Source of the DNA: Apostichopus japonicus
Taxonomy: Eukaryota; Echinodermata; Holothuroidea; Aspidochirotida; Stichopodidae
Assembly (NCBI RefSeq): GCF_037975245.1
Contig: NC_092577.1
Coordinates: 22,036,398 to 22,100,397 of the forward strand
Direction: 5' to 3'
Length of the DNA stretch: 64,000 bases
The notes beneath the pieces are model-generated. The model saw nothing but the letters and a program-made list of their open reading frames with translations. It did no database searches and had not been told where the DNA came from. Made by a program: the position numbers and the translations under genes. Position 1 is the stretch's first letter. Every line of letters begins with the position of its first letter. Positions 24,836 to 62,241 of this stretch are shown piece after piece.

Positions 24836-26732
24836 ATGGCATCGCGCCGTGATTCGAAAATTGTTAAGTTGACCTTCACCGGTGAACAAGCGGTTCAACC
24901 GGTGCAAGTTTTTAATATTTTAAAGAGTAAGGGTGTTGTTGTGCCTGGAGAGGTTGATGCTTTACAAGCTCTCCAGGGTCGTAATACGTATGATCTACGT
25001 TTTACCAGTGACGTGACCCGGCAGAAGGGTGTCACGTTGCTGAGTGGGGTTGAAGGTTTGACAGTTACTCCATACGAACGTTCCGTATGGGTAACTGTCA
25101 TCCACGTAGGATTAGAGGTGCGTCAAGAACTTGTCGCAACGGTGACATCTCTATGTTCCGACGTCTCTATGTTCCGACGTCTCTATGTTCCGACGTCTCT
25201 ATGTTCCGACGTCTCTATGTTCCGACGTCTCTATGTTCCGACGTCTCTATGTTCCGACGTCTCTATGTTCCGACGTCTCTATGTTCCGACGTCTCTATGT
25301 TCCGACGTCTCTATGTTCCGACGTCTCTATGTTCCGACGTCTCTATGTTCCGACGTCTCTATGTTCCGACGTCTCTATGTTCCGACGTCTCTATGTTCCG
25401 ACGTCTCTATGTTCCGACGTCTCTATGTTCCGACAATTTGTTTGGAAACTTTTTTTTGACCAAAATTTTTTGGGGGACTTAATTTTTTGGGCCCCAAATT
25501 TTTTTGGGACCCAATATTTTTTTGGGGGGGCTAAATTTTTTTGGACCAACATTTTTTCTGACCTACCTTTTTTGGGGGAGACAATTTTTGGGGCGCACAA
25601 AAAAATTTTCACGAAAAAAAAAGGGCCCAAAGTTTGTTATGACCCAAATAGTGTTTCTGACCAAAAATTGCTTGTGACCCGAAATTTAATTGTTTGTACT
25701 CAATTTTTTTGGGACCAAAGTCAGTTTGGTCAAAACAAATTTGGGTCCGAAAAAAGTTGGTACTAAAACAAGCTGGTCAAAAATTTTGCTCCAAAAAAAA
25801 TTGAGTCAGAAAAAAATTGTCGGAACATAGAGACGTCGGACTTAGAGATGTAACCGTCGCAACTGTTTTAGGTCGGTTCGGGGCTGTGAAGGCTATTAAA
25901 ATGTGCTCCTACGCACAGGCCCCTGGGGTGTTGAATGGGCACCGACAGGTTCGGATCGACCTCAAGCAGGACATTCCCTCCTTCCTTTTTATTGCCGGGC
26001 ATAAAGCTCACGTGCGTTACCCCGGTCAGCCCCGTACCTGCTTCAGGTGTGGGGAGACCGGGCACGAAGCCAAGGGCTGCCCAAATAAAAAGTCTGGGCG
26101 CTGCCTTCGTCTTGGGCATGATACCTCTGCTTGCCCAAGCGAAGTAGTGTGCTCACTCTGTGGGAAGGAGGGACATGTCTTTCGCGCTTGTCCCTCCTCT
26201 TATGTCTTTATGACAAAGAGTGGGGGTCAAGCAAAGGCGCCAAGTTCTGGCGCACCTACTGTCCCGGAGGAAGCTCCACTCAAGGAGGGGGAAACGGGTG
26301 AGGATTCACTCTCCGCACCTGGTACACCCTCCCCCGTAGTTGCAGACCCAAACCCCGTGCCCGCACCGAGAAAGTCTCCACCAGCTTCCCCCATCAACCC
26401 CGTGCCCGCACCGTCTCCACCACACAGCGAAGCGGACACGGGGTCTCCACCAGCTTCCCCCATCAACCCTTCCAGTCCCGTACCCAGTCCGCCGCCGGTA
26501 TCGCCAGATCCGGAGACTGTCTGACGACGACTCGGTCGTCGGGTCCCCGGAGGCTATGTCTGACAGCGACTCCGGAGGCTCGGTGATCGTCGAGCCGAAA
26601 CGTGCCACTGGGACGAGCTGGTACGACGAGATGGGGGAACCCTCACTAAAAAGGTCGGCCTCAAGTGACGACTCGGACGACGATATGTCGTCTAGAGCGC
26701 GCTTGAAGCTTACAGAATCGACGTCGGCGTAG
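24836..26732 (+). pseudogene. ORF1 of LINE copy A (zinc-knuckle RNA-binding protein), interrupted
   Basis: The ATG at 24836 starts MASRRDSKIVKLTFTGEQA, as in copy B. The frame is cut by the 715-bp foldback element 1 after the codons for QELVA. Removing it with one TSD copy restores the frame into LGRFGAVKAI. Three CCHC knuckles follow: CFRCGETGHEAKGC, then a second with its first Cys changed (SGRCLRLGHDTSAC), then CSLCGKEGHVFRAC. A Pro-rich linker with an internal duplication of SPPASPINP follows. A frameshift near 26517 moves the C-terminal acidic tail to another frame ending at 26732. Confidence 0.85.
25141..25855. mobile_element. Foldback element 1 (TU-like), 16-bp iterons, 8-bp TSD
   Basis: A 715-bp element inserted in ORF1 of LINE A, flanked by perfect 8-bp duplications GTCGCAAC (25133-25140 and 25856-25863). 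Left terminus GGTGACATCTCTATG and right terminus (reverse complement) GGTTACATCTCTAAG form the inverted ends. The left arm is 18 exact copies of a 16-bp unit CTATGTTCCGACGTCT (25151-25438). The right arm keeps about two. The middle is low-complexity sequence built of T-runs and GGGACC-like words. No protein is encoded. The architecture matches sea-urchin TU foldback elements (tandem ~15-bp repeats in inverted ends, 8-bp duplications). Confidence 0.85.
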
Positions 26733-26752
26733 TTTTGCCCCATTGCCTTCTC

Positions 26753-29700
26753 ATGGCCCATACATTTTCAGTTGCCACCTTGAACGTCAATGGCATGAGG
26801 GATCATCGCAAGCGCATTTTCCAATATTGTATTTCAATGGAAGTCGACTGCGTTTGCCTACAAGAAACACATATTTTGGAAGAAGATGTCCCTCTATGGG
26901 CTTATGAGTGGGGTGGTGGGCTGCATGCTTCGTTTGGTTCGTCTTCATCCTGTGACACTGTCATCCTCCTGTCACCTCGTCAGGCGGGTTGTGCCACTAG
27001 GGTGGAGACGGATCACGAGGGCCGATTGGTTTGCATTCTTTTCAAGTATCCACAGGGTAACATCTCCCTTTGCAATGTGTATGCTCCCAATCGGCCTTCT
27101 GCTAGACGAGATTTTTTTAACACGCTGCCTTCCTTTGTTCCTGGTAGTGCTCCATGTGTCATGGTCGGAGACTTTAACTGTGTCCCAGACTCGGGTCTTG
27201 ACAGACTCGGGTCTTCTGTGTCTGCTAGTCCCGACGCTGGGATCACAGAATTGGACAGATTCACTTCGGCACACCTTTTAGCCGATGTCTGGAGGCATAT
27301 GCACCCGTGTAGTACGGTGTATACGTGGGTGAGGCCTAACGGAGAAGATGCCTCCAGGATAGATCGAGTGTATGCGCCCGTAAGTTTTAAATTTTCGGGT
27401 TGCGAGACGCTCAGCTGTCCGCTCTCTGACCATGACACTGTGGTAGCGCGTTTTGTTTTGCCTTCCATTTTCCCGATCGGGCGGGGCCTATGGAAGCTAA
27501 CTGTCGGATTCTTGGCGAGGCAGAATTCCGCCAGGGTTTCGAGACCAGGTACAAAGGATGGCAAACATTGAAGCCGGCCATTGCTTCTACATCCCAGTGG
27601 CGGGATAATATCAAGTTGCGCATCAAACGCTACGCAATTCAGTATTGCGTGACCCGCGCACGGCGTCGAAGAGAAAAATTCTCGAAGCTGTGCGCGGAGG
27701 TGAAGTTTGGCGACCCTTCGGCAGTCATCGCTTTGCAGACATATCTCGATGAAAAGTACCACGGTGCCCGCGTCAGGGCCCGTGTCTAAGCGGTGGAAGC
27801 CGAGGAGCGCCCTTCACTGAGGTTTTACCAGTCCGTTAGCTCATCGGCGGGTGACAGACGCGTCCCGTCTGTGCGCGCTACCGATGGGACCGTGGTCAGT
27901 GACCCTCACGGCATTGTCCGCGTATATAAAGAGTATTATTCGAATTTGTTTACGCGTGGCAATGTCGACTTGTCGGCACAGTCTGATTTATTGAGGGGAA
28001 TCTCAAAAACCGTTCCCCACGATGTCAATGATATTTTGGGGGGCGGAATAACCACTGTTGAGCTTTGGAAGGCGCTTTCGAAGATGAAGAATGGCAAGTC
28101 CCCGGGTTCGGACGGGCTCCCGAGGGAGTTCTACCGAACCTTCTGGGCAATAATAGGACCCGACATCAGAGCCGTCTTCGAAGACGCCTTCCAAAACGGA
28201 CTGTTAAACCAAAGTCAACGTCTGGGCATGATTACTTTGCTGCCAAAGTCTGGGGACCCCTTGGATCCCCATAACAAGCGTCCGATCACCTTGTTAAATG
28301 TGGACTACAAGTTGCTGGCTAAGGCTTTGTGCAACCGCCTTGCACTGGCTATGCCGCATCTTGTTGGTGATCTCCAGACTTGTGCAGTCAAGGGTCATTG
28401 CATCCAGCAGAACTTGTGGTCGATGCGCGACTTGACCGACTTTGTTATTGAGCGTGATCTGCCATGTGCATTGGTGTCTCTGGACCAGCAGAAGGCCTTT
28501 GACATGGTGGATCGCGGTTTTTTAATGAATGTATTGGAGACGTTTCGGTTGCACCCAATTTTTCGTAAATGGATTTCTGTTTTGTATGAAGAAAGTTTGT
28601 TCTGTTATCGTAAATGGGTTTTGTTCGGAGGTTTTGAACGTAGAGAGGGGGGTGCGCCAGGGGTGCCCTCTGTCTCCATTACTTTGTTTTGTTTAGCGAG
28701 TCCCTCTCTCGTCTTTTGGAAAGGGACTCCAAACTTGTTCCATTCGTTGTGCCAGGGGGTGCCAAAGTGAAATGCGCTCAATATGCAGATGACGTGACAT
28801 GTATTGTTTCGAGTCTGGGCTCCTTTCGCGCACTCTCGCAGGATCTATCTATTTTTGAGAGAGCTACCGGGGCGAAGTTGAATCCGGAAAAGACAAAGGG
28901 CCTTCGTCTTGGTAGCTGGAGATACAGAGATTTACCATTCGGTGCGTCGTGGTCGGATCAGAATATCAAAATTAATGGTATATGGTTCGGCTACGATGCA
29001 CCTTGTGATGTCACCTGGAACGAGAGGGCTGAGGTATTTCAGAGCAGACTCGAAACCTTTGGCACCCGCTGGCTTTCGATCTTGGGGAAAGTCACTGTTA
29101 TTAATCGTTTCGTTTCGCCCATCTTGTGGTACCCGGGAGCGGTGTACCCTATTCCGCGTCGCGTCCTGGTGCGGTTGGAGAGGGCGATTTTTTCATTCAT
29201 ATGGTCTGGTGGTACAGAGCTGGCCAAGAGGGCGGTATTGTACCAAAAACTGGAGAAGAGGGGACTAGGGGTGGTTCATCTGGGAAGTAAGTTAACTTGT
29301 TTGTTATTTAAGCAATTGTTTGTAGCGGTAACTGACCCAGGGTTGCCTTGTTCATATTTTGTACGTTTTTGGGGTGGGTTGCACTTGCGTCGATGGGTTC
29401 CGGCGCTGTTTAGCAACAGAGAACCGCATAGAAGCACACCAAGCAGAGTGGTGCGTGTCATTTGCTCTGCTCTTATTGAGTTGCCCCCTGTTGACCTGTC
29501 ACGGCCAGCCCTCGTTCTCAGTTTCTTTGCGGGAATAGGGCCTTGAATGCAATTTTTGTACAGGGACGTCATCCTGTCGAAGTATGGCGTTCGGTGCATT
29601 CAAGGCTGAATGGTTGCAGGCTCCGTGATCTTGCGTGGAGAATTGCACACGGTGCCTTGGTGACCAATCTGAAAAGGTATCACTGGCGATTGGGTGATGG

Positions 29701-29932
29701 ACTGTGCCCGAGGACCGGCTGTGACAGCTTAGAAAGTACTGCCCATGTTTTTTGGGCATTGCCCCTTTGTTTTGAACTTGTGGGAGTGGTTTCAGTCCTG
29801 GACCGACCGTTCCTGGTCGGTAGGACAGGGCTTTGTTTTATATGGATTAGATCCTCCAGTTTGTTCTGTTGCTGTGTTGCAGCGTATTATTTATGTTTGT
29901 TCTGTTCTAAAAAAACTTATTTGGAGGAATAG
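26753..29932 (+). pseudogene. ORF2 of LINE copy A (endonuclease-reverse transcriptase), broken
   Basis: The ATG at 26753 starts MAHTFSVATLNVNGMRD, the first motif of an apurinic-type endonuclease. VMVGDFNCVPDS and LSDHDTVVA are also present. Compared with copy B there is a one-base deletion at about 27497, a GAA-to-TAA nonsense change at 27787-27789, a frameshift at about 28595, and another at about 29525. RT motifs include LPKSGDPLDPHNKRPITLLN, LVSLDQQKAFDMVDRGF and QYADDVTCIV. A C-terminal CCHC-like motif (CPRTGCDSLESTAHVFW) is present. A 23-bp deletion removes part of the end. It cannot make a full protein. Confidence 0.9.
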
Positions 29933-30318
29933 CTGTGATATTGCTTTTAGGGGGTCCCTGGAGGCGGTGAAGTCTGACATTCGCCTTCAAGTTGAAGGCG
30001 ATTTTCGCCGTTTATCTGGGGCTGCCTTTTTTGGACGGTGGTATGCTGGGTAAGGCTGTTTTGTTTCGCTGCGTGCTGGTCGTCCTTTTGTGGTTTTTTG
30101 AATGTTTCAGTGGGTGGTTGGGCGTTTTGTCTGTACAGGTCGGTGGGCGTATGTACTTTTTTCTTTTGGCTCGCTTGACCTGAGTTTCGTTTGTAGGAAT
30201 GGGGTGGTTTGGTAGTGCCGTTTGGCCGTGACGTTTTGTATCCCGTTCGACGGGTCACGTAAAAAGCACTTATTGTAGAATATGTTCTACCGTTGAATTC
30301 TTTTAAATTTATTTGCAG

Positions 30319-31223: not shown

Positions 31224-32578
31224 GGACGCACCATAGTTATTATACTACCCCTGGTTAGGCAGCAACGCGGTTCTGCAGAATATGTTGGAAGTCTCAGTTT
31301 TTGCAGTCACGTGACATTGACCGTGCACAAGCGCTGAGCCGAGCAGCTAGCCTAGCGAAGTCTGCGATAACTGTGTATTGATGCTACCATACAGTAGTTA
31401 CTATCTGTAATTCTACGAAGAACGCAGTATAGAGGCTGTTTCGTCGAATAAAAATGTACGTTGACTATTTAGGGCCGTACCAACTCATCCTCTGCCACGA
31501 TGGTTTAACGATCAATTTATGGATGGACTAAGACTTGTAGGAAAAATAGGCATAGACGTAAAAAAAGACACTAATGGTAGCAAGCCCTGTAGGCTGTAGT
31601 ATGAGCTACAAATACAATAGGCCTAGTAAGTGAATGTAAGGTATAATGTACCCCTTTGGCGAGATACAACACTATACAGTAGCCCGTAGTCTGGCCTACA
31701 ACTTGTACTATTGTACTGCCTACAACGAAACGATACAGCCTACAAATTAGGCCGTAATCTATAAATAAATAATACCCATTAAGGGAAAATACAACACTAC
31801 AACGAAACGAATATACTAAAAGTAACACAGCCTACAAGTACAAGACTAGCATTTGCACTGTAGGAGTATGAGGTAATGTTTGGCCTAACGTTACTCATTA
31901 GTGCTAACTGTGTAAAAACAGTGAAGTGTTTGTCAATAATTAAACATACAAGTCATGTAAATTCAGTAATTGATTGAGCGTTGTCGTTGGGGGAAACCTG
32001 GTATAGTATAGGCTGTAGCAGAGCGGGAACTGCATTGGATTACACAAGGGACTTTGGTTACTGACTCAGTGACTGTGTAAAGCCTACTGTGCTTGCACAA
32101 GTTCTCACAGCCTTTTCTTTCGGTTTACCAGTAATGCCCACCTGATTAAAGAATACTTAAATATTCAATGAATGAGTAGAGTACAGTAGAAACTTAGGAA
32201 ATATGGGTCATGGTAATGTATGGCAGGCTAATATGATTTAGTAACCTAGGTCTCCCCCCCCCCTCACCCCACCAAAAAGAAAAAGGTGTGTACGTATAAA
32301 CCTACCAGTAACATGCTCAGTCAGTTCTGGACATTTAAGAATTGTAATTATTACAAAGATGAACAAAGTTAGCTCCTAACCATGCATGTCCTATTTGTTA
32401 TGTTATTTTTTTATTAGATAATATACTGTATTGGAAGTTTCCTTCCAGTTTTTGTTTATTATGAAGAAGGTATATGTTTTGTACCTTATAGTAATATTGT
32501 CAATTTAAAGTACGTTGGCCTATATTTTAACATGTCTTCAAACATTTTTGTAACATTTGTCTTTCTTTCCTGTCAAAG

Positions 32579-33162
32579 ATGCCGGGTGATAACTGTGCAA
32601 TCGTTGGTTGTGGGACAAGTAGGAGATCAAAAGGGATTGGAATATTTAAGCTTCCAGCTGCAAAAGATGAGGAATACAAGAAATGGCGTGTTCTGCATGG
32701 CTGAATGAAATCACCAAAAGCCGAGGCTTTCAAGGAGCAAATTAGAAGAGTGTGTATACCTGTCAGAAACATTTCCTTCCTGGGAATTTTACAAAAGCTG
32801 AACAAAGTGGTATGTTTATTTCCAGACAAACATTGGAAGGATTTCAAATAACAACATATTCTTTGATAAAGGCCACCAAGTTCCTTCTTACAGAGGGCAT
32901 GGAATTTGTATTTGCAGAGCGCTTCTGTCGGGACCCTTTGGAGGAATATTTTGGAGTTCAACGCCAGCTTGGGAGGAGAAATGATAACCCTGATTTGTGC
33001 GTTTTTGGGTATAATGATAATTCTATTAGGATTCAAAGGACAATTTCTTGCAATACACGTCGTTATGATCACAAGAGGTCACATGGGAGAATGTTGTGGA
33101 TGAGCAAGTGCCGAAAAGACAGTATAAGAGAGTACTCTTTTAAGCATGTTTATGATGAATGA
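32579..33162 (+). pseudogene. P-type transposase remnant: THAP domain joined to C-terminal region
   Basis: The first part (32579-32704) has [12 protein letters not shown] (first two Cys of a THAP zinc finger) and KKWRVL (the conserved Trp), then a stop. In another frame from 32752, [11 protein letters not shown] gives the C-x2-H half. It runs without interruption into [40 protein letters not shown] and SIRIQR, which are conserved in the C-terminal part of P-element/THAP9-type transposases. The RNase H-like catalytic core and GTP-binding part that should lie between are missing. This deletion layout recalls KP-type P derivatives, which keep DNA binding without catalysis. Confidence 0.75.
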
Positions 33163-34497
33163 TCAGAATATGCTTAGGATAAAAGGGCAGAATGCTTATG
33201 GCAAACTGTCACTACTGATTTATTGAGGGGAAACCTTTCAGCTTAGTATGCCTCAAATACCAATTGAAGCCAACTATTTGTTTTATAGGAAACACTATAG
33301 TGAAGATCAAGGCATATACATTTAAAAATTATGTTCCACGGCTAGGACAGCCAATATCACAGCTTACTGTACTTATTCCAACCCCCATTTCAGTAGTATG
33401 ACATCCATACTAGCGGGCTATGAGATTTTAACTCCATGATTTGCCCACTTGTGTGATCTTGTTTGGAAAGATTTTATGTGCTGAAGTTAATATTGCTGCT
33501 TGCTTTTCAGAGCTAAGAATTTCAGTAAAGGACAGTGCCTTAAGTTTCATTAACAATGGTATATATGGAAACTACATTCAAGAACAGAATTATGATGAAA
33601 ACATTTTTATTGTGATACTGCATGTAAATGTTTTGTAATTGCCCTTTAAATAAAATAAGAAAATTATAAGTACTTCGTATTGAAACTTATTTCTTCACAG
33701 TCTAAAGTATACAATGGTAAAGGGATGAGGATTGTTAGCAGTGGCATATATCTAGACCTTGACTTCAGAGGGTGCAAGACTAATGATCAATGGTATTGAA
33801 AACAGGGGTGCCAAGTTTGTTACGTTGTGCTTAAGGAAGACCCCATACTGCTAGTCGCTCCTTGTCAGCCATCCTTTACCATGAACATGTTAACCAAAGT
33901 TAAAAATGATTGAGTAACATCAGCATTGTTTGTTTGTTTCAAATGCTTTCAAAATCCCCTCCCTTTCCAGCTATTGTACTCAACTCTGATTCTTTGCATA
34001 AGTTGTTTTCTTTTGAACAGTTATCTGAAAGGTCCATCAGAAGATAATGTGATGTATTTGTAAGAGCTTATTAATAACTAGCTTAACAGCAAATGACTTT
34101 CTATTGCAAAGGAAATATAAACAAACAAAAAACAAAAGGTGATAAAGGTCATTCAAAAAGTTACTGGTGTATCTTCAAAAAATTTCAATGTGCTTACTCT
34201 TTCAAAATAATGAATAAAACTCAAATTACCTATATTAAGGCCTTTGTGCTTAAGCTCCTTTTCTGAGTTGAGGCATTATTTCATGAATTTTAATAATATC
34301 TGTTTTTGTCAATAAAACCAAAACATGATATACAAAGACATCTCCATGGCCCTTAACTTTTATTACAGTATTTTTTTTGTAGTTTTTATACTTATACTGG
34401 AGTAGTTCGACTACAAAATAATTGACCTAAGTTTCTATAAAATGATTTGAATAGTACTGTAGCAGTCACATGTTACAAGCACATTGCTGTAGGTCTC

Positions 34498-35012
34498 CTA
34501 ATCTTTTGGAGCATCACTAGATCTTTTCAGTTCCCTTCTCAAACCCTTCTTTTTGGACATTTGCTGCCTCCTTTTATATTTCTGCACAAAGTCACGAGTG
34601 AATGAAAAAGCTGTAACTCTAAAATATAAAATACTATGCAAAATGCATTTTGAGAGTTCATCTTCTATGTTGAGGTCGCAGTCAATGCATAAAGTATTGA
34701 AGTTGCTTAAAACAGTTTCATGTGTAATAGTTTTATTCAGAATGGATTCGGTATCAATTCGATGCATTCCTGTTGGAGTACAAAGCCTGAAATTTTTTTC
34801 ACCAACAACCAGTATCCCATAGACACATGCTTTAACCGACCATAAACCACCACGATTCAGTGCTGTCACCAGAGATCCTTCATCAACTTTTTTTCGTTTA
34901 GTTTACGAGCTTCTTGAAACCCGCTCTGAATATTTTGATCTGATTCTATTAAATCTAAGACTAGGTTCATATCATGCCCAAATAGAAAGAGAACATCGTT
35001 CGATGAAGCCAT
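34498..35012 (-). pseudogene. Convergent ORF in the P-superfamily element, transposon tail domain
   Basis: The ATG at 35010-35012 starts MASSNDVLFLFGHDMNLVLD, which continues through QSGFQEARKLNEKK. A frameshift in an A7 run (about 34890) leads into DEGSLVTALNRGGLWSV and later YFRVTAFSFTRDFVQKYKRR and KKGLRRELKR, ending at 34498. The NRGGL motif and the Phe/Lys-rich end resemble C-terminal segments seen in invertebrate transposon proteins of the THAP/P kind, by my recollection. It runs towards the THAP gene on the opposite strand. An inversion inside the element or a second gene are both possible. Confidence 0.5.
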
Positions 35013-35953
35013 CTCTTCGTCTTCCGTAGATAGTGCTAGTGTATTTAATCAGTAAAAGTTCGGCAGCTGAACCAGCTAACATCGATTGTGTGCACGGTCA
35101 AGGTCACGTGACACACTTTTTGCACAGTTCAACATAGCTGACAGGCGCCCGTACGCGCTGCATTGTTGCTCGCGGTGCTGCCTAACCAGGGGTAGTATAA
35201 TAACTATGGACGCACTGAGAAGAGGCTATTTTTTTTTCACGCGTCCACAGCGTCATCAGTGCGTCCTGGACGAACAGACGCACAAAAACGCGACCCCTGG
35301 CTCCATGCAAGCACCATACATGGACAATGCCTTGGTGGAATGAGTTCAAACTTGGTGTGTAGGTTCCCCAATCCCCATAATAAGTACAAGATCCCTAAAG
35401 GTCATTTGAGAGGGGTCAAAAACTGAAAGCCTTGTAACCACCATAACTTATCAGTGTGGAAATGAACCTACTGATTCTGCTACATGTTACAAGTCATTTG
35501 ATTGTAATAGGGGTAAAATGTTGGAAACTTTGAAACCAGCAAGCCCAAGTTGTGGCAACCTGACAGAACTTTAATATTGACACCTATTTTGCTTTTACAT
35601 GGCAATGAATCACAACCTTGTTGTTTTTCTATATTCTATAATTTCTATATTCTAAAAAGAATTGTCAGTGAGCTGAGTGAAATTGAACATGATTTGTGCA
35701 AATATAAGAGATCAAAAGTTATTTGCAGTCAATGGGGGGTTAAACAATAGGAATCTCATAGTCACATTTCTCAGCAGTGTTTACTTGAAATTTGGAATTG
35801 GGCAATAAAACAGGCTTAAAGTAACCCGCTGAAATTTTGGGTTTTCATCCTCACCAACACCCCCCCCCCCCACACACACACTTTTCAGTTTGTGTTCATA
35901 CTTGGTCCTGCATTCAATCAATTGTGAAATAATGATACATTATCTCTCATCAG

Positions 35954-36216: not shown

Positions 36217-36310
36217 GTAATAGCTGAATGGGCTCTTCGTTGTAATGGGTTAGAATCAGTGTAAGAATCATCTTGTAATCATATAGGGTATTTGTGTTTA
36301 TCTAATTTTT

Positions 36311-36345
36311 AGCTCATACCAGCATGCTGGTGTGAGCTTTTGTAA
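36311..36345. repeat. AGCTCATACCAGCATGCTGGT palindrome-type short repeat
   Basis: A near-perfect palindrome centred on GCATGC, with a partial second copy at about 36570. A nearly complete copy also lies at 38101-38130. It seems to be the end of a small interspersed repeat. Confidence 0.6.
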
Positions 36346-36927
36346 TGGGTGTGGGGTCTGAAAGTGGGGAGGGGAAATTCCCTCCTATGTTCAGCAGAAC
36401 ACATTTGGGGATCTTTGTGAAAGTTGTAAGCAATGATCGTTGCATGGAAAACAAATTGCACTGGAAATACCGAAAAGAGCCCCTCAAATAGTCCAAAATT
36501 GATATCTCCCCCATAAGAATTGCCGTGTGGTACTAGGCTAATTCTATGGTACAACCGATGTGGTTTTTGCTGGTGTGAGCTATTGTTACAGTGCGGCGTC
36601 TATCACTCTATCCGTGAACAATTGCTCATCAAATTGATCGTCTGCATTCATCCCAATCACCTGTACGGTTACAGATTCTTTGTAATCAGTGTCATAGGCC
36701 GGATGGTCTAACATGCTTTGATTGTCTCACCTATGTATGTGGATATGTTCAATAATAATGTAGAAATTATCTTGGGACCTCTACATTTTTAGTTTTTCAC
36801 TTTAAAGAGATCGCCCTATATTTAATCATCACTACACACCTTCAGTCCAATACTAGTTTTTTGCTGAATTGTATAAACTTAAATACCAACAAGGTTAACT
36901 GAAGAGTCATGTTTATTGGCATTGCAG

Positions 36928-37082
36928 ATAGAAAACTCTCCATCAGAAGCCTTGCTGGAAGACACCATAACTATGGTTGGTGACTGGGCTGCCAACAACG
37001 GATGCCCTGCTATATACAGCATGTGAATGGCAAACAAGGAGGATATTCTAAAGACCCTTTTCAAACAACACATCTATTACAG
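36928..37082 (+). pseudogene. HECT domain exon 3 with in-frame TGA
   Basis: Acceptor attgcag and donor gtatat, phase 0/2. It encodes IENSPSEALLEDTITMVGDW then AANNGCPAIYSM, an in-frame TGA, and MANKEDILKTLFKQHIYYR. Both sides of the stop match the HECT N-lobe segment (W..nnG.paIys, then a helix before the R-end). The stop suggests decay of the gene. Confidence 0.65.
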
Positions 37083-37272
37083 GTATATTTGCTAGTATTT
37101 AGCTCATACCAGGCTTACGTGACCAACCACTCCGTTTTATTTATCTATCCTCCTATCAGTGTACAGTCTGTTAACTCTTTCTGAAAAAATCATATATTGA
37201 CGGATAATTAGAAAAACACTAATTGCCCACAATAGGCACATTAGGTTGTGAAATGGTACATTGCCACTCCAT

Positions 37273-37517
37273 TCTACCGGTAGCGTATTTTTTTTTCCAG
37301 GACGGACGTGGGTTTCAGGAATGTACAAATTTGAAAGTGGGTTAGGGATTTAAGTTTTATGAAAATGAAGGACTGTCGTTCATAATCTGGAGTCAAAACT
37401 AGGAAAAAAGATTCACAACATGTTTTTTGAAAAAGCGTCACATGTTTGGAATCCAGGGATTTGATTGGCCGATGCCCACGTTCGTCCTGGGGAAAAAAAA
37501 ATACGTCTACCGGTAGA
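37273..37517. mobile_element. MITE-like element with ~40-bp inverted ends
   Basis: The 245-bp unit begins TCTACCGGTAGCGTATTTTT and ends in its inverted version, with similarity over about 40 bp including CCAGGACG(G/A)ACGTGGG. CCAT occurs on both sides (37268-37272 region and 37518-37521), a possible 4-bp target duplication. No coding capacity. Confidence 0.65.
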
Positions 37518-38002
37518 CCATTTATAGGTAATACTGATGCATGACAGATGAAGAGATTACAACTTTGTGTGATAAGGGTTTCATTTGCCAACTAAGCCAT
37601 ATATGATCTTCTGGTAGTGCAAATGTGTAATTGCACTTGTAATGGGGAGGTCTAAGGGTGCTATTATAAATAAATGGTGCTATGTATTACAACTTTAACT
37701 GTATTTATGTACAACATTTTTCAATGTTTTAAAAGGAACATAGTAGTCGCTCCAAAGCAACGTCCAATACACTGAGTAAGAAATCATGTATGAAGTGTTA
37801 TATATTTATGACAACGTATGGATATTCTGTGTCTTGCTTATATTGATTGGTTGAAAATGACATACTTTTGACAGTTAGTACTCCTTTGTAATGTGTATTG
37901 GGGCAACTTTATTTTCTACATATTGATAAACTGTTGTTTGTCGATTTTTTTTTTTTTTGCACCCCCAAAATCGTCATTGTGGATTTTTTTCTCTCATGTT
38001 AG

Positions 38003-38128
38003 ATGCAAGTCTGAAATAGATGACCTTAAGCGAGGTCTCGACAGTGTTGGGAAGTTATGGAGTATGATCCATGAAGACCCTGCACCATTCACTGTAACAA
38101 TAGCTCACACCAGCATGCTGGTATGAGC
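38003..38128 (+). pseudogene. HECT domain exon 4, ending in a palindromic repeat
   Basis: After acceptor tcatgttag it encodes CKSEIDDLKRGLDSVGKLW then SMIHEDPAPFTVTI, the end of the HECT N-lobe. It then runs directly into the repeat TAGCTCACACCAGCATGCTG (38101-38130), which supplies a stop. No C-lobe exon with the catalytic Cys was found downstream, so the ligase would be inactive. Confidence 0.6.
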
Positions 38129-38130
38129 TA
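38101..38130. repeat. 30-bp near-perfect palindrome
   Basis: TAGCTCACACCAGCATGCTG followed by GTATGAGCTA is self-complementary except for one position. The same repeat is at 36311. It replaces the natural end of the HECT exon. Confidence 0.75.
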
Positions 38131-38274
38131 AAAATGCTCCATTAACTTTAAAGTTAAAAGAGCATATGAAAGTGAGCTACACTAAGGAAGCAAGTTGAGG
38201 AATTCAGTGATTGTACAGATGAATAGGACTTAGGCAGCAAGAGGCAGTTGCCAATCTTAAGAAAAGATACTCAC

Positions 38275-42652: not shown

Positions 42653-42847
42653 CAGTTGGCTTTCGTGGAGTGCGGACGTGTTTTCGCTCTCGCTCATCAT
42701 CTGTTACAGCTGTTATTGTACTGTGCTGGTGGGTGTGATAGCTTGTGTTCGTGTGTTTTCCTCAGTTCGTATATCGTTTGTTGTTTCACTATCCTGTCTT
42801 TTGTTTGTTTTGTGTTACTCCCCTGTGGCCTAGCCACCTTCGGTATC

Positions 42848-44182
42848 ATGGCATCGCGCCGTGATTCTCGGATAGTTAAGTTGTCGTTCACCGGTGAACA
42901 AGCTGTTCCACCGGTGCAAGTTTTTAGTATTTTGAAGAGCAAGGGTGTTGTTGTGCCTGGAGAGGTTGATGCTTTGCAAGCTCTCCAGGGTCGTAATACG
43001 TACGATTTACGTTTTACCAGTGACGTGGCCCGTCAGAAAGGTGTCACGTTGCTGAGTAACGTCGAGGGGATGACAGTTACTCCATACGAGCGATCCGTAT
43101 GGGTAACTATCATCCACGTAGGACTAGACGCTGGTGTGCTGGGGAGGGGTTTTTCGTTTCGCTGCGTGCGGGTCGTCCTTCTGTACGTTTTTGAATGTTT
43201 CAGTGGGGGGGGGGTTGGGCGTTTTGTCTCTGCAGGTCGGCGGGCGCATGTTTTTTTGGCTCGCTAGACCTTAGTTTCGTTTGTCAGAATGGGATGGTTC
43301 GGTAGTGCCGTTTGGCCGTGACGTTTTGTATCCCGCATGGCGGGTCACGTAAAAAACCACGTAGGACTAGAGGTGCGGCAGGAACTTGTCGTAACGGTTT
43401 TGGGTCGGTTCGGGGCTGTCAAGGCTGCCAAAATGTGCTCCTATGCACAAGCCCCTGGGGTGTTGAACGGGCACCGACAGGTTCGGATCGACCTGAAACA
43501 GGACATTCCCTCCTTCCTGTTTATAGCAGGGCATAAAGCCCACGTGCGGTATCCCGGTCAGCCCCGTACCTGCTTCAGGTGTGGGGAGACCGGGCACGAA
43601 GCCAAGGGCTGCCCAAACAAGAAATGTGGGCGCTGCCTTCGTCTTGGGCATGATAGCACCGCTTGCCCAAACGAGGTTGTGTGCTCACTATGTGGGAAGG
43701 AGGGACATGTCTTTCGAGCTTGTCCCTCCTCTTATGTCTCTAGGACTAAGAGTGGGGGTAAGTCAAGTTCCGACGCACCTACTACTTCACGAGAGGAGGG
43801 GGAATCTGGTGGGATTTTACCCTCCCCTGCACCTGGTTCACCCTCCCCCGTCGTTGCAGACCCCAACCCCGTGCCCGCACCGAGAAAGTCTCCACCAGCT
43901 TCCCCCATCAACTCGTCCAGTTCCGTCCCCAGTCCGCCGCCGGTATCGCCAGATCCGGAGGCTTTGTCTGACGGAGAATCGGTGGTCATCGATTCTCCGG
44001 AGGTTCTGTCTGACAGCGACTCCGGTGAATCGGTGATCAGCGAGCCGAAACGTGCCACTGGGACGAGCTGGTACGACGAAATGGGGGAACCCTCTCTTAA
44101 AAGGTCGGCTTCAAGTGACGACTCGGACGACGATATGTCGTCAAGGGCGCGCTTGAAGCTTACGGAATCGTCGTCTTCGTAG
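42848..44182 (+). pseudogene. ORF1 of LINE copy B, interrupted by a nested insertion
   Basis: The ATG at 42848 starts MASRRDSRIVKLSFTGEQAV. The frame is cut at 43128 by a 228-bp LINE 3' fragment and resumes after 43357 (VGLEVRQELVVTVLGRFGAV). Three CCHC knuckles follow: CFRCGETGHEAKGC, CGRCLRLGHDSTAC and CSLCGKEGHVFRAC. A Pro-rich linker and an acidic Ser/Asp tail (SASSDDSDDDMSSRA) end at 44180-44182. ORF1 proteins of this type bind element RNA. Apart from the insertion it is undamaged. Confidence 0.9.
43129..43356 (+). mobile_element. 5'-truncated LINE 3' end nested in ORF1 of copy B
   Basis: A 228-bp fragment matching the LINE 3' UTR, from CGCTGGTGTGCTGGGG to GGGTCACGTAAAAAA, bounded by a perfect 15-bp duplication CCACGTAGGACTAGA (43114-43128 and 43357-43371). 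This is a classic truncated retrotransposition event into a related element. Confidence 0.95.
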
Positions 44183-47595: not shown

Positions 47596-47782
47596 TATTT
47601 CAGTGGGGGGTTGGGCGTTTTGTCTCTGCAGGTCGGTGAGCGTATGTACTTTTTTTGGCTTGCTTGACCTGAGGTTCGTTTGTAAGAATGGGATGGTTTG
47701 GTAGTGCCGTTTGGCCGTGACGTTTTGTATCCCGTATGACGGGTCACGTAAAAAGCACCACACCCACAGTGATAAACGTCCC

Positions 47783-49530: not shown

Positions 49531-49899
49531 TTGATAGCTTATACTTATAGATGCTCTGCTTCTCAAAAATATTTAATTAGTGCATCAGTAGTATAGAGGG
49601 CCCCGGATCGCACCGGTGCAATCCTAATTTTGGATGTATCTTGATGGTTCCCGGACAATTCCCCCCTGGACGATTTCCCCCCGGACGATTCCCCCTCGGA
49701 CAATTGCCCCCCGGACAATTCCCACCCGGACAATCCCCTTCCTCGGAAATTTCGACGATTGATTGACAGCCGATGTAGGCGGGGTTAAGGCTATTATTCC
49801 AGTAAAAATGAGGGTGTGCAACAAGAGATTTCAGTTTTGGTTTCGATGACAATCTAACCTATGCATTCATGCGGGCGGAGAGTGTGTATGCGTGTGTGT

Positions 49900-50340
49900 T
49901 GGGGGGGGGGTGTAACGCCTCGCTTTTAAATACGATATCTCACGAAGTGAAGCTTTGACCAATCTAATATTGGTGTATATGAGTAACACCATTGGGTAGA
50001 AGAACCCTTTTGTTTTGTGGGTAGGTCAAAGATCATTTTGAGTCACCAGGGGCCTAATAGTAAAAACCTTGTAAAGACGATATCTCAAGGATGTAAGCTT
50101 AAACCAATATCATATTTAAGTTCGTGAGTAGGGGACCACATTTAGGAGCAAAAGCCTCTAGTTTAATGTGGAGGTCAAAGGTCATTTGGGTTCACCAGGG
50201 GTCAAATAGTGTAAACCTTGTAAACACGATATCTCAAGAAGGGAATGTTGAACGAATCTCATATTTAGTATGTAGTTGTTACACGTTCAGTACATTTTTT
50301 TATTGAGATCAAAGGTCATTTTCAGTCGCCAGACGCCAAG
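49900..50340. repeat. Diverged ~125-bp tandem repeats inside foldback element 2
   Basis: Units contain ACGATATCTCAAG, a segment like ACCAATCTCATATTTA, and AGGTCAAAGGTCATTT followed by GTCACCAGGGGCC. About three to four diverged copies are visible. Similar phrases occur near 21300-21420 and 35340-35480, so this is a common genomic repeat. Confidence 0.7.
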
Positions 50341-51146
50341 TTGTGGAAACCTTGTTTATAAGCTACAGTATCTCCCACCGACCAGCCTATCAGATAACAT
50401 GTGCGTTACGCCTCGTACGAATAGGGGGCTATTGGCATTGGAAATGAGCTTATGGGCATCCGTAGAATCTAAAACTCACAAACTGTAAACTCCAACATAC
50501 TTGCATTTGCTTAAACCTGCCGCTTGGAAGCCTTACTTTGCGTGCAAAAGGTGTACCATTACTTTAAATAATTCAGACAACAGAGGATAGTTGTAGCCTT
50601 CCTGGATTACAAGCTGGGATAGGGGACCAAATGGAATATTTTTGCCACTGACTAGAGACTTGATCAGCCACCCTCCCAATTTCTTCAACACCCCCGATGA
50701 ATTCCAAGTTTCGTCTTTTCTTGCTGGCCATAATAAGGGTCAACAATTTGGTAACAGAACTGAAAGTTTGTGGACAAAAGCCGAAGCTATGCCTCATATT
50801 ACTGACTTGTGAATTAGGATACAATGTTTTATTGACATGTCAGGTAGGCCTTTCTATTCTGTGCAAAAAATATATTCTGTAAGAAATATATATATGCTGA
50901 ACAAAGTACGGAGCTCTGTAAGTTCCAGCTGAGATGTTGGTATTTCAGTAACTTCAGTGAACAGCTTATTCATTATATTGGCAATAAGTGTGCAAGTACA
51001 ATGCACTTTCTTGCTCAGAACCGAAATGCAGTTCTAAGTTAGTGGTTTTGCGACATCTCATTGCATATGATATTACGACGATACGATCAACAGCATAGCC
51101 TACTGTATCTAGCCGGCTTAAAAGTCCCATTAACATATCATATAAC

Positions 51147-51177
51147 CAGGGAGCTGTTAGAGTAGCAGCTCCCTGGT
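51147..51177. repeat. Hairpin CCAGGGAGCTG...CAGCTCCCTGG
   Basis: An 11-bp perfect stem with a 9-nt loop, extended by a few more pairs outside. A related hairpin lies at 55568-55592 (CCAAGGAGTT...AACTCCCTGG). Confidence 0.75.
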
Positions 51178-51514
51178 ATAACATAGGTAACATATACGTA
51201 TAGCAGCAGTACTGTAATCATTGCGTCCAGATATAGCGCTTTAGTAGGATAGTTGGTAGTGTGATGTTAACGTTAGACTACTCTAAACAGCATACTTATT
51301 ACTTACACTAGGCTAAGACTTAGCATATATTCCACTATTTGCTTTTCTCTAACCACAGTCTTTCAATAATTTGTTGCACTTCTGCAAGGACTCTATACAT
51401 CAACGGAAAGAAAGTGGATGTGAAGAAAACAGCAATATGATGAATAAGCTGGTCACTGAAGTTACTGAACAACAAAACATCTCAGTTGGCACTTACAGAG
51501 CACCGTACTTTGTT

Positions 51515-51960
51515 TAGCATATATATTTTTCTTACAGAATATATTTTTGCACAGAATAGAACTTTGTTATTAGAGAAAATATTTCCTACAAAGAATAAAA
51601 ATTTATTTTTGTACAGACAAAAAATATTTTTCGGTCAGAGAATTCACATACTTTTTGAAAAGGATATATATATTTCTTCACAGAATACCTTTTTTTTCTC
51701 TTAGAGAATAAATATATTCTTGGCAGAGAAAAAATATTTTTTGTGTTAGAGAATATATATTTTGGACAGAATATTTACTATAAGAGAATATATATTTTTG
51801 CACAGAATACATATTTGTTATTAAGTAAATACTTTCTGTACGCGTGGAGAATATATAAATATATACTTGAAGGGAATAAATATAATTTTCAGGGAATATA
51901 TATGTGTAAACAAATGTCTAAAATGTATTTTTGAAGTTAACCATGTTTGTATTTCGCAAT
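51515..51960. repeat. AT-rich quasi-periodic stretch (ACAGAATATATATTTTTG-like)
   Basis: Words such as CAGAGAATATATATTTT and TTTGCACAGAATA recur every ~18-40 bp over 450 bp. The arrangement is irregular, unlike the clean iterons at the element ends. Confidence 0.6.
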
Positions 51961-52225
51961 TACAGCATATATATTTTGTATGTATATATTCCGCTTTCTC
52001 GCGCCATAGCAATTGCCCGGGGGAAATTGTCCGGGGGAAATTGTCCGGGGGGGGGGGGAATAGTCCGGGGTGAAATTGTCCGGGAAGGTTATTGACCGGG
52101 GGGGAATTGTCTGGGGTGGGAACTGTCCGGGGTGGGAATTGTCTGGGTGGGAATTGTCCAGGGGGGAGTTGTCCGGTCACCATATCTTGATTGCCATAAT
52201 AGATGTATATGGAACGCCAAAAGGA

Positions 52226-52545
52226 CCACGGTGACATGTACTACTACTAATTTGACACGTACTACTACTAATTCCAAGTGTACTACATCTAAAATGTCGC
52301 GTAATACTTCTAATTCGAAGTGTACTACATCTTCAATGTCACGTACTACTACTAATTCGGAGTGTACCACATCTAAAATGTCGCGTACTACTACTAATTC
52401 AAAGTGTACTACATCTAACATGTCGCGTACTACTACTAATTCGAAGTGTACTACATCTAAAATGTCACGTACCACTACTAATTCGAAGTGTACTACATCT
52501 AAATTCACGTACTACTACTGATGTCAATACCACTACCTCTAAAAC
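52226..52545. repeat. 42-bp minisatellite, open in frame on both strands
   Basis: Six to seven copies of a 42-bp unit (ATGTCGCGTACTACTACTAA, TTCGAAGTGTACTACATCTA, AA) with a few changes. The plus strand reads MSRTTTNSKCTTSK repeatedly and the minus strand VVRDILDVVHFELV repeatedly, with no stops in either. It begins about 40 bp after foldback element 2. It is probably non-coding; the openness follows from the unit being a multiple of three. Confidence 0.9.
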
Positions 52546-53961: not shown

Positions 53962-56900
53962 GTACGGTAATGAAAATTGCCTGACATTGAGACACTCTCA
54001 CTCCTAACACTACATTTTCAGTTCATTTAAAGTTATGTGGTCATTAATTCAAGGCAACTTTTTTCTTTTTTGGAAAATACAAGTTATTGAAAACAGTAAT
54101 TGGTATTCACCAGTTTTTATAATTGCTTTTGTGTAGTTAATGACATATTTGTAATCTTTGCCACATCACCCAAACATCGTTGTCATTGTAACTGTTTTAT
54201 CAGTATATGGGCCTATTAGTTTAATTTTTAATCATAGTTTCATTGTGGACCTGCCAGGCAATACAAAATCGCAGTCAGTCAATTATACAATACTGTTTAG
54301 TTTTAGCGCGTGAAAAATCTGACTGATTCTACTGAAAATGGGAGAAACTGCCCTGCTAGAATAAAACATATGTTTGAAACTTCAAACTCTGAATCATACT
54401 TTAAAAAAATCTAAGGTACGTTTGCAATCTCACATATCATTAATCAAAATTTGAAATATATCACAGAGTTCAAGATAACCATCATGAAAAAGAAAGAAAC
54501 CTTTTTTGTGTGTGTGTGTGAGTGGTGAATGTCAAAATAATTCATATTCTATATTCTACATTTTTTCATAGCTGCTGAAGAACGTTCCTCTTTGTTCCGT
54601 GGTTGGACCTCATGGAAAAAGCGAAAAAAGGGGTGGGAGGCAATTGAGCATTACGTTCTGTTGTCTTTCTGAAGTGATCTTTGTAAGTAGTTGTAGGCCC
54701 TAATAGTATTTGTATTATGTTTGTAAAAATACTTGGCGAATATATATGTTTGCAAAGAACTAGCTGTCTCATGAGTCATGGCACACTATAGGCTGCAGGT
54801 TTCAGGGTGTGTACAAAATTAAGATCTAAGACCTACTGTAGGACCTGCAAAACTAGGACCCTATTTTGCCACAAATCTGTCTTGCCAACAATTTGCCTTT
54901 AGGCGTCGGGTCCAAAGGCTGGTGGTTTTATCGTTTTGTAGCCCCTTAGAGGCCTCAGGGCCTAGTTTTCATCCATTCGGCTTGAGTTTCATCGATGGAC
55001 AAAAAACAAGAAAAAAGTAATGGGAATTAGCGGGGAAAGGGGTCAACCCTCGATCGCTCAACAAGGACCTGCTTGTGAGGTTTCAGAGAACAAAAATAAA
55101 ACATTTTCGGTCAGATCTGGTCAGTCGAGCACATACGGACTCATTAGCTTATTTACTATTTCTGCAGTATAGCCTAGGCTATTGACTGGCAAAAAAAGCA
55201 GTGCATCCACACCCAGCTTAAATGCCACTGTTCCATCTGTCAAGTTAAGATTGATATAAGGAAATATTTTTGAAACACTTATCAGTCCTTGTTTTGTTTG
55301 TTTTTCTCCTTCTTTCTTAGAGGTGCCAATGTAGGAATATGTGCTTGTTACACCCCCTGTATATGCCACTGCTACTATATAGCCTCATTGTAGTGGTTAC
55401 ATGAGCAAGTATTGCCGAGCAGGGTAATTTGGTTAACCATATGGTATAGCTCACTGTCTTTCTGCAGGTCTATAGGATCCCATTATAATCATTAATCACA
55501 AGGACATGAAACCATTCTGGAATGTGTCGTCTGTCATTTCCTGTTTAAATCTACCACCTTATAATGACCAAGGAGTTACAACAACTCCCTGGTATGACCA
55601 TGAAACAATTATATGCCTCATGGTATATGCATTTAGTAAGATGCTATTGTTATGACCTCTTCATTCCAAAATCCTCAGACTTTATATACTGTATAGTCAT
55701 TACCACAATATGCTGATATGCCAGGGGGAATGTTTGTCACATTCCCGTTAACTTTATCTGAGAATATTTGTTGTTGATAGACTGATGAAATTTTGTGCAA
55801 CATTATGGGTATGTTTTGAAGTGAATTTATTATTCAAATTCTGCACAAATAATGGGCTTAAAACCTTCAGCAGTGCGGCTGACGGGTATTGTGGGCCGTA
55901 AACATAGTAATAACCTACGAAAGCAATGATCACAGGAGATGCGATGAAGTCGAAAAGGATGTGTGACACTCTTGAAAATGGTTATGGATGGAAAAAAACT
56001 ATTGGGAAAAACTTGGTTCTCAGGCAATAGTGTACATCTTGTTGGTCATTCTTAAGCACGAGAAGTGCCATTTCCAGTGATCTGGGGGGCTATCAAAACC
56101 AGACATTTTCTTGGCGTCTGTACCCAGCAAATGTGCCCCCAATATTTGAAACAAAACGCCTGTATATATATATATATATATATATATGTTCAAAGTATCG
56201 AGAGTATTTCGAGATCCGGCTTTGGGAATCACAAATGATTTCATCATGTTTGATCTCTAGAGTAAGGCAAAATATGTCACCAAAAACAGAACTAGTATTG
56301 TTCAATACAGGTGACAAAAGCCTACAGTGAAATTACGACCTTCCTTACCGGTTTCAAACCTCTGGACATACAATCAACGTCCATAGCCTAGTGGTTAGGG
56401 TGTCCGCGTACAGAGCGGAAGGCCCGTGGTTCGAATCCCGGTGGAGGCTGAGTTTTTTCACTGTTCTTGATTTTCCAACTCATTACGATTTTCATTTATA
56501 TATATATATATACACATATAATATAACACCTGAGATATATATATATATATAACATATATATATGTGTGCATATATATATCTCAGGTGTTATATTATGAAG
56601 CAAATTTATGAGTTGATTCATGTGTGGTATATACAAATCCAATATTTTATGCAGTGTGTCATCAATACAAAATTACTGTTGCATGATTTGATTTTGAATT
56701 TATTACATAATGGGATGCATCTGGTTTCATTTTAAATAGCTGTCTTTCTTCTGGCTTTAGTTCATTGGAGTTTTTAACAAAAATAGAATAAAGAACAAAG
56801 AATGATAATTGTTTTGATTTCAGAAAAAACACCGTCCAATATGGCTAAGACCTTCTTAGGTGAGGCTGGATTGGGTGAAAAGAAAGTTATTCTCAGCTCT

Positions 56901-61293: not shown

Positions 61294-61610
61294 CTATAAA
61301 GCCACATAGCTGGCTGGGAAACATATGAAACTCCTCTCGCCAACATCAACTAAAAAACAACTTCCACACAGTTCAGTTGCTGCAATTGCTGAGACATTTT
61401 CAGAAAGATGTGCACACAACTTTATGTGGAAAACATCAGTATTGTTTTGTGGGTCTTGAAAACCATTATCTGGGACAAAGTACATCATTGTATACAAAAT
61501 AATGCATTCATTTTGTATACATAACACTTTTTGGATCCTTCCAACCTGTCCATTTGACAAGTAAAACATTGTGCAGTTGCGCCGTGTAGCTTTGGTGTAT
61601 TGCTGTGAAT

Positions 61611-62241
61611 GGGGTCTACCCGATGTTCACGGGGTTCAATGTTCCCAGGGTTCGATATTCCCCGTTTTCGTGTTATTTCAATGGCTTACGATGAATACGA
61701 GGTTCGTTGTTCCCAGGGTTCGATGTTCCCAAGGTTCGTTGTTCCCAGGGTTCGATGTTCCCAAGGTTCGATGTTCCCAGGGTTCTATGTTCCCAGGGTC
61801 CAATGTTCCCAGGGTCCAATGTTCCCAGGGTTCAATGTTCCCAGGGTCCAATGTTCCCAGGGCTCGATGTTCCCAGGGCTCGATGTTCCCATGGTTCGAT
61901 GTTCCCATGGTTCGATGTTCCCAGGGTCTGAGCCTGTCCCCGAGCACGGTCGGGCAGCAGCAAAGCGGACCCTCTTAATTCTCGACCTCGTGGAACTCTG
62001 GACTCTCAGGTCAACACTTCTGTGCGGCTCTTACTGAACAACGTCCCTTCGGGTGATTTTTGAAAAAAAAAGGGACATCAAACCCTGGGAACATCGGACC
62101 CTGGGAACATTGGACCCTGGGAACAAAGAACCTTGGGAACAATGGACCCTGGGAACATCGAACCCTGGGGCCTGGGAACATTGGACCCTGGGAACATCGA
62201 GCCATGGGAACATTGGACCCTGGGAACATTGACATAGCCCC
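61611..62241. mobile_element. Foldback element 3 (TU-like), 16-bp iterons, 8-bp TSD
   Basis: A 631-bp element in the transposase fragment, flanked by CTGTGAAT (61603-61610) and CTGTAAAT (62242-62249), 7 of 8 identical. Ends: GGGGTCTACCCGATGTTC and, inverted, GGGGCTATGTCAATGTTC. The left arm has about 16 copies of GATGTTCCCAGGGTTC (61630-61925) and the right arm about 9 inverted copies (62080-62235), around a 150-bp unique core. Removing the element with one duplication restores the host frame (YHLQ then QYTKATRR). Confidence 0.88.

Follow-up and report, generated by a model that had tools for sequence, protein, structure and literature searches.

The stretch of genomic DNA analyzed here (64,000 nucleotides in full, hereafter the window) corresponds to C17:22036398-22100397 of a 671.6-Mb assembly and contains three structures, E1, E2, and E3, in which short tandem units are repeated in arms of opposite orientation. 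They raise the question of whether such paired arrays are transposon insertions and, if so, which enzyme moves them. The TU elements of the sea urchin Strongylocentrotus purpuratus have outer arms of 15-bp tandem repeats, an inner domain, and 8-bp target duplications, and to our knowledge no transposase is known for them. E1 to E3 resemble TU elements in their arm plan and duplications.

Three foldback insertions in the window

E1, E2, and E3 share a common plan, with a short G-rich tip followed directly by 15- or 16-bp tandem units in opposite orientation on the two sides (Table 1). The initial annotation of the window had described them as foldback transposon insertions with iteron arms and target duplications, and empty sites, genome copies, and the duplications themselves confirm that these insertions are real.

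E1 is flanked by an exact 8-bp duplication (GTCGCAAC) and carries 18 units of 16 bp in its left arm and 2 in its right arm. Behind the iterons lies a second, AT-rich domain, which forms an imperfect inverted repeat (75% over 128 columns, last units included). The insertion point falls in the zinc-knuckle ORF1 of a LINE (copy A), while a second copy of this LINE in the window (copy B), which has RT and endonuclease domains, harbors at the same position one 8-bp target without the element. Judged by its sequence, the LINE hosting E1 is L1-type, the nearest solved structures being those of L1 ORF2. Another E1 copy, L013, sits in ORF2 of the same LINE family, and its joined flanks (112 bases) align without gaps to both window LINE copies, with 3 and 5 mismatches.

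The ends of E2 had previously been placed at 49645-52182. Genome copies give 49646-52181 instead, the leading T being target DNA, since with the tips GGTT and GGTGAC all six resolved genome copies show an exact in-phase duplication, which is not the case with a TGGT tip. The ends fixed across genome copies are GGTTCCC and GGTGACC. The duplication of the window copy can be read either as 10 bp with one mismatch or as 9 exact bp plus one extra base. Arms built of 15-bp units, as originally described, were borne out by array measurement. The DNA of the inverted repeat nested in the E2 core is also found elsewhere, without the left part of E2.

In E3, the duplication matches at 7 of 8 positions (CTGTGAAT/CTGTAAAT), and the arms hold about 19 units (A-arm, interrupted) and 9 units (B-arm). 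When E3 and one duplication are removed, a minus-strand reading frame stays open in a gene fragment adjoining a weak DUF4218-like piece. No Pfam family matched the joined target fragment, and this putative reading frame is taken as supporting evidence only.

We compared the window with 12 dinucleotide shuffles, using as criterion an exact 8-bp flank match together with at least 15 of 20 matching inverted ends. Four pairs were found in the window, two of them being E1 and E2 with the ends initially assigned, and none in the shuffles. At the level of E3 (7/8 flank, 12/20 ends), there were 137 pairs in the window and a mean of 98 in the shuffles; E3 is therefore unremarkable in this test alone, and its reality is settled by its genome copies. 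The window scan also brought up a fourth element at 36329-38111 and another candidate at 31315-35103. Both were rejected because their 8-mers (AGCATGCT in the former) are palindromes that lie inside longer inverted repeats.

Table 1. Features of E1, E2, and E3 and of their target sites (window positions)
Feature	Position	Strand	Basis or remark
E1, 715 bp	25141..25855	(-) when written T-end first	ends GGTTACATC / GGTGACATC as in genome copies
Left E1 target duplication GTCGCAAC	25133..25140	.	direct reading
Right E1 target duplication GTCGCAAC	25856..25863	.	direct reading
E1 expanded arm, 18.2 units x 16 bp (GACGTCTCTATGTTCC), 99% alike	25144..25434	+	array measurement
E1 short arm, tip and two units	25822..25855	-	array measurement
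LINE copy A (L1-type by sequence), E1 target	24629..30269	+	94% identity to copy B over 3.9 kb
Empty E1 site, single GTCGTAAC in LINE copy B (42653-47758)	43388..43395	+	comparison of copies A and B
Empty site of E1 copy L013, in LINE copy A	28918..28925	+	exact 8-bp overlap of the two flank matches
E2, 2536 bp, corrected ends	49646..52181	+	ends GGTTCCCGG / GGTGACCGG in genome copies
Left E2 target duplication TATCTTGAT	49637..49645	.	direct reading and genome copies
Right E2 target duplication TATCTTGAT	52183..52191	.	base 52182 between duplication and element
E2 left arm, about six 15-bp units	49649..49738	+	array measurement
E2 right arm, about eleven 15-16-bp units	52011..52178	-	array measurement
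Inverted repeat nested in E2 core, AT-rich, arms about 129 bp, 91% alike	50852..51561	.	
E3, 631 bp, A-end first	61611..62241	+	ends common to 12 two-ended copies
Left E3 target duplication CTGTGAAT	61603..61610	.	direct reading
Right E3 target duplication CTGTAAAT	62242..62249	.	direct reading
E3 A-arm, 16-bp units (CGATGTTCCCAGGGTT), break after third unit	61615..61927	+	array measurement
E3 B-arm, 16-bp units	62082..62237	-	array measurement
E3 internal deletion junction, approximate	62005..62015	.	left, A side, and right, B side, of the 11-kb element

Three dispersed families with 8- or 9-bp target duplications

The three members had been read as a local cluster; genome searches assign them instead to three families dispersed over the genome. 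E1 is represented by 176 exact T-ends and 207 exact G-ends, with 0 hits for both in the reversed-pattern control. The E2 search gave 3,610 candidates, and among the 40 scored, the best long matches are 87 to 98% identical. E2 DNA is so common that some closeness to MULE genes is expected by chance. For E3, 15 candidates were found and all were scored. One exact iteron pattern per family had 0 matches in viral contigs, and the exact E3 pattern had 0 matches in prokaryote genomes. At C2:27.43-27.44 Mb, E1 G-ends of the same type face each other, 7.5 and 10.2 kb apart.

To define ends and duplications, we examined 39 E1 loci, 11 E2 loci, and 14 E3 loci. After exclusions, E1 provided 21 sites with both ends: ten loci at the same site in one larger repeat (exact duplication in six, one mismatch in four) were counted as one insertion, and nine loci without a recognised second tip were left out of the duplication count. 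Both ends were in hand for 7 E2 copies and 12 E3 copies, the latter including an 11-kb element described below. In these 12 E3 copies, the A-end is GGGGTCTACCCGATGTTC with at most one mismatch, and the B-end is GGGGCTATGTCAATGTTCC with none.

Across the 40 two-ended sites, 27 duplications are exact at 8 bp, 5 are exact at 9 bp, 7 have one mismatch, and a single site, that of E3 copy L057, has none. By family, E1 has 16 exact 8-bp duplications, 1 exact 9-bp duplication, and 4 with one mismatch; E2 has 4 and 2, respectively, plus the window copy with one mismatch; and E3 has 7 and 2, plus 2 with one mismatch and the site without duplication. The exact 9-bp cases (L041, L062, L064, and two E2 copies on C9 and C20) represent all three families. 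Each family thus has two fixed, slightly different ends, made of a G-rich tip and then iterons, and duplications of 8 or 9 bp.

Genome copies devoid of duplications or of a common boundary had been named as the outcome that would speak for plain satellites, and what we found was the reverse, with 39 of 40 sites duplicated, 32 of them exactly. The presence of duplications thus agrees with the initial annotation, whereas their supposedly fixed length of 8 bp does not. hAT duplications have a constant length of 8 bp and Merlin duplications measure 8 to 9 bp, a length with which those seen here would agree. The exact 9-bp duplications at 5 of 40 sites argue against a strict-8 enzyme such as hAT. 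In the Mutator superfamily, target duplications of 8 to 11 bp are described (PMC6446971), a range into which those of all three families fall.

A MULE transposase gene in long E3 copies

As already noted in the initial annotation, no transposase is visible in the window: among the 25 of 37 matched Pfam families listed for the 149 window ORFs of at least 80 aa (out of 332 of at least 60 aa), none is a fitting transposase. A longer copy with a transposase and the same ends was looked for and was found for E3. This element of 11,012 bp (C17:22116330-22127341) starts 15.9 kb past the right edge of the window and has its A-end at 22127341, its B-end at 22116330, and a MULE match at C17:22121343 between the two. 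The exact 8-bp duplication ATACGGAA is present outside both ends, indicating that they bound one single element.

The genome profile search covered only the MULE transposase family PF10551 and returned 38 matches, all over the cut-off. The interior of the long E3 contains an N-terminal FLYWCH zinc finger (E=4.9e-7) and a MULE domain (E=1.2e-10). PF10551 exceeded its cut-off both in L102, within the 11,012-bp element, and in L106, beside a second B-end; FLYWCH (PF04500) scored 30.2 and 27.9 bits against a cut-off of 23.6. The combination of FLYWCH with MULE characterises Phantom transposases according to the account of Tm1 (PMC3169594), and the predicted E3 transposase is probably of the Mutator superfamily, Phantom type. 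For E3, the evidence obtained with this PF10551-only search hence points to a MULE and not to the hAT, P, or Merlin-type enzyme proposed earlier.

Aligned to the long E3, query positions 1 to 400 of the window copy correspond to the A side (93%) and positions 400 to 515 to the B side (97%). This alignment shows window E3 to be an internal-deletion derivative of the 11,012-bp element, whose two ends it shares. Near C17:15731541, another long copy is 94% identical over 954 bp beside the B-end and 94% identical over 1,712 bp in the transposase region; its A-end was not found within C17:15741500-15743500. Both transposase copies seen are broken, L102 being split between frames and L106 having an in-frame stop, and the earlier description of the family as active goes beyond this evidence.

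Ends and possible transposase links of E1 and E2

For E2, two MULE genes that are 96% alike over 926 bp (C20:6868470 and C16:21507569) have E2-family DNA 2 to 7 kb away, most pieces being on the same strand and one stretch per locus being inverted. The E2 left end is present at the C20 locus and was not found at C16:21513200-21513500. Since the right end was not found within C20:6864700-6867000, these loci are suggestive of a MULE gene linked to E2. The MULE protein on the E2 side is only distantly similar to the one on the E3 side, with 27% identity over 190 columns.

No E1-linked transposase was found, with pairs of exact E1 ends surveyed on C1-C11 and T-ends set against the MULE matches on C1-C14. 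On C1-C11, an exact G-end faces 51 of the 85 exact T-ends at a distance of up to 20 kb, and 50 of these 51 pairs span 344 to 1541 bp, too short for a MULE gene; the remaining pair (17,338 bp) may be a chance pair. An apparent link at C7 and C5, with two MULE genes 11 to 14 kb inside an E1 T-end, was rejected: the E1 ends there delimit short complete copies (694 and 410 bp), and the genes lie beyond them. This link concerned 2 of the 12 MULEs on C1-C14 and had a random-placement value of 0.0009, with a threshold chosen post hoc and 100 of the 176 T-ends listed. Two further MULE loci on C17 lacked all three iteron motifs within about 3.3 kb on either side.

Taken together, E1, E2, and E3 are in all likelihood non-autonomous members of three dispersed foldback DNA-transposon families that are moved in trans by MULE transposases. 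That E1 and E2 also use MULE enzymes is something we infer from their G-rich ends, their 8- or 9-bp duplications, and their related tip sequences. The families could alternatively represent three unrelated superfamilies with the same plan, E3 being a MULE and E1 and E2 something else. Indeed, E1 lacks a linked transposase, the link of E2 is incomplete, and the foldback plan occurs with several types of enzyme, among them that of the P-type Galileo (PMC3688188). We nevertheless consider this rather unlikely in view of the 8- or 9-bp duplications in all three families and of the ends themselves. In four tip-anchored comparisons of E1 and E3, 12, 14, 9, and 10 of 20 positions agree, and the best agreement has a permutation p of 1.5e-4, which rises to 2.4e-3 when the G cap is kept constant. 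The iterons had been called unrelated or only partly related; the former holds only in part, since the tips support kinship for the E1 and E3 ends. Compared with E1 and E3 tips with one gap allowed, E2 tips give p values from 0.009 to 0.26, a weak hint that they may be related too. E1 and E2 also have a common end asymmetry, one tip being GGTT and the opposite one GGTGAC, which may speak for kinship.

A further alternative is that another transposon inserted later into the long E3, bringing the MULE gene with it, and that a different enzyme, e.g., Merlin or hAT, moves E3. Both C17 loci are located in a MULE-rich region (11 of the 38 matches fall within C17:15.7-25.6 Mb), the distance between gene and B-end is about 5.0 kb in one long copy and about 3.1 kb in the other, and the long copies were read in part, their middles incompletely. 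On the other hand, two loci 6.4 Mb apart both have the B-end interior together with the gene, at about 94%, the 8- or 9-bp duplications fit a MULE, and FLYWCH followed by MULE is the Phantom order as given in PMC3169594. A nested MULE is thus very unlikely, and the preferred reading remains a MULE gene belonging to E3.

Arm growth

The proposal that the arms grow by repeat expansion is supported for E1, where up to 81 units, 80 of them identical, occur, mostly in one arm. In 12 of 13 long-array copies, the identity of the units to their consensus is 0.98 to 0.997 (units with more than 5 mismatches left out), and the cores have a median pairwise identity of 0.86 among 21 copies. Near-identical units next to diverged cores indicate that the arrays were amplified recently, copy by copy. 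In L013, unit identity is 0.94 and a private variant unit occurs 27 times, showing that this array was amplified within L013 or its immediate source.

In 17 E1 copies, 13 from the standard count and 4 from a looser count with one tip unrecognised, one arm holds 15 or more units and the second arm is countable. This second arm has 2 to 6 units in 16 of them, and in L051 both arms are expanded, to 13 and 38 units. L048, L049, and L050 have a long array with one arm only visible. The side of the long arm differs between copies, and the longest arms have 81 to 87 units. Because these loci were drawn with a long-array query, the share of long-array copies is unreadable from the sample. In a pattern-based sample from C1-C11, 5 of 50 short-range pairs exceed 800 bp and 2 of 50 exceed 1 kb, and a comparison of array lengths between C17 and C1-C11 is biased by the long-array query that yielded the C17 copies.

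In E3, 130 bases per arm were compared. The A-arm is nearly constant in all 11 short copies, interruption included, and was therefore inherited, and in the B-arm units were gained or lost in several copies.

Near-perfect tandem repeats and E1 arms reaching 1.4 kb could recall ordinary minisatellite arrays forming inverted pairs by accident, a reading that the genome copies refute, as their tips are fixed, 39 of 40 sites carry duplications, and two empty sites were found.

Discussion

In the mechanism that we propose, long copies would supply the MULE transposase, which would bind repeated sites in the arms, pair both ends, and insert the element at a cut staggered by 8 or 9 bp. Short copies would arise by internal deletion. 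The iterons would then be repeated binding sites through which transposase multimers recognise the ends. Such repeated binding sites have been shown for the P-type Galileo of Drosophila, in which some repeats bind the THAP domain of the transposase (PMC3688188). Array length may change in either direction through replication slippage or unequal exchange. Copies with two long arms may be rare because the large palindromes they would form are unstable and would be lost.

The combination of this plan with this enzyme class is already known from Muta1 and Tm1. Muta1, an active MULE of Aedes aegypti, has duplications varying between 8 and 9 bp and ends of 145 bp in which a 12-bp subterminal tandem repeat occurs 9 times, and is classed as a type 2 foldback (PMC5225508). 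According to the same source, 10 of 12 long-end MULE families of this mosquito have tandem repeats of 9 to 15 bp, and there are many non-autonomous derivatives with varying repeat number. E1 to E3 are thus similar to Muta1 in their 8- or 9-bp duplications, tandemly repeated ends, and short derivatives. However, the repeats of Muta1 are described as having 3- to 4-bp spacers and lying behind a palindromic tip (PMC5225508), whereas the iterons of E1 to E3 directly follow a G-rich tip, and, unlike in Muta1, E1 arms reach 81 to 87 units.

The Tm1 elements of root-knot nematodes share with E3 a Phantom-type FLYWCH plus MULE transposase, predicted in the case of E3, as well as variable arrays (units of 13 to 15 bp in Tm1), duplications (8 to 10 bp in Tm1), and asymmetric tip motifs (PMC3169594). 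Their tips, as reported there, are 7 bp long and non-inverted, unlike those of our elements, and unit sequences and host differ. Galileo also has long ends with internal tandem repeats but, in contrast to E3, encodes a P-type transposase (PMC3688188). Tetris, another Drosophila element with such ends, has repeats that seeded a satellite, its units being about 220 bp long, unlike those of E1 to E3 (PMC4079207). A 2026 survey of arthropod MULEs reports G/C conserved in the first three bases of most ends (PMC13359780). In the open literature, we found no description of these three families in this kind of genome.

Our data indicate that TU-like foldbacks are real in this genome and that most examined copies keep exact duplications. 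For one family, E3, an internal-deletion derivative provides the link to a FLYWCH-MULE transposase. The E1 copies, whose array length differs per arm and per insertion, represent a natural experiment on the conversion of transposon ends into minisatellites. As a tentative and rather doubtful extension, one-sided E1 growth could result from transposition or one-end repair and seed minisatellites copy by copy, and the TU foldbacks of sea urchins could themselves be Phantom-like MULEs. The sea urchin is mentioned as a foldback host in PMC4079207, where the 1983 TU paper is cited. As the present host is an echinoderm, our findings would hint at the class of enzyme that moves the TU elements, which have been known since 1983.

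Repeats and other features of the window

The window holds repeats and other features of several further kinds (see the table). No transposase was recognised in the 3.9 kb between the 39-bp inverted repeats. Both of the ~1.2-kb direct repeats contain tandem units of 27/54-56 bp. The tRNA-like sequence was read by ARAGORN as tRNA-Cys with anticodon aca, and it may be a tRNA gene or a SINE. Of the three fragments of the LINE (L1-type) 3' end, one sits within ORF1 of LINE copy B, and another within the En/Spm-like gene adjoining the foldback transposon E3.

Features and their positions (in the window unless a contig is named)
Feature	Position	Strand	Score
Ulp1-type peptidase fragment	3607-3972	-	PF02902, E=2.7e-13
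Two ~1.2-kb direct repeats (86%) flanking fragments of gypsy-type gag, protease, RT and integrase	6996-15428
117-bp tandem repeat, 3 copies, 98%	18676-19017
Short LINE 3'-end fragments (same LINE as copies A and B)	43127-43355; 19672-19901; 62489-62728
39-bp inverted repeats, 97% identity, enclosing 3.9 kb	31231-35209
Near-palindromic 39-bp sequence around AGCTCATACCAGCATGCTGGTGTGAGC, two inverted copies 1.75 kb apart	36305-36343; 38097-38135
Tandem units of ~145 bp, E2 core	49923-50267
AT-rich foldback nested in E2, degenerate 18-20-bp units	50852-51561; 51521-51903
42-bp array directly adjoining E2 end	52237-52519
tRNA-like sequence	56376-56450	+	43.8 bits in Rfam
E1 in larger repeat, loci L034-L038, L040, L043-L046	C9, C20, C13, C3, C16, C15, C7, C16, C13, C5 (in order)

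A foldback nested in E2

The core units of the foldback transposon E2 contain GGTCAAAGRTCA-like double half-sites together with ACGATATCTC. Among the matches listed for the genome search, copies of E2 query positions 1211-2365 occur on C11, C14, C6 and C17 without the left part of E2, and the nested AT-rich foldback may therefore be a family of its own.

E1 on C17 and within a larger repeat

The interval C17:15.7-25.6 Mb, which includes the window (at 22.04-22.10 Mb), spans about 10 Mb, or about 1.5% of the assembly, and holds 11 of the 38 MULE transposase matches from the genome search. Twelve of the 39 examined loci of the foldback transposon E1 fall in the same interval, and several of these copies are flanked by the same LINE as in the window.

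At the ten loci in the last row of the table, E1 occupies a common insertion site inside a larger repeat. At L036, another E1-like piece was observed about 1 kb downstream. The larger repeat contains repeats of 170-180 bp, and its copies are ~98-100% identical between loci across the 1.0-1.5 kb compared per side. Judged from these sequences, we consider this larger repeat to be a carrier of E1 that has spread recently.
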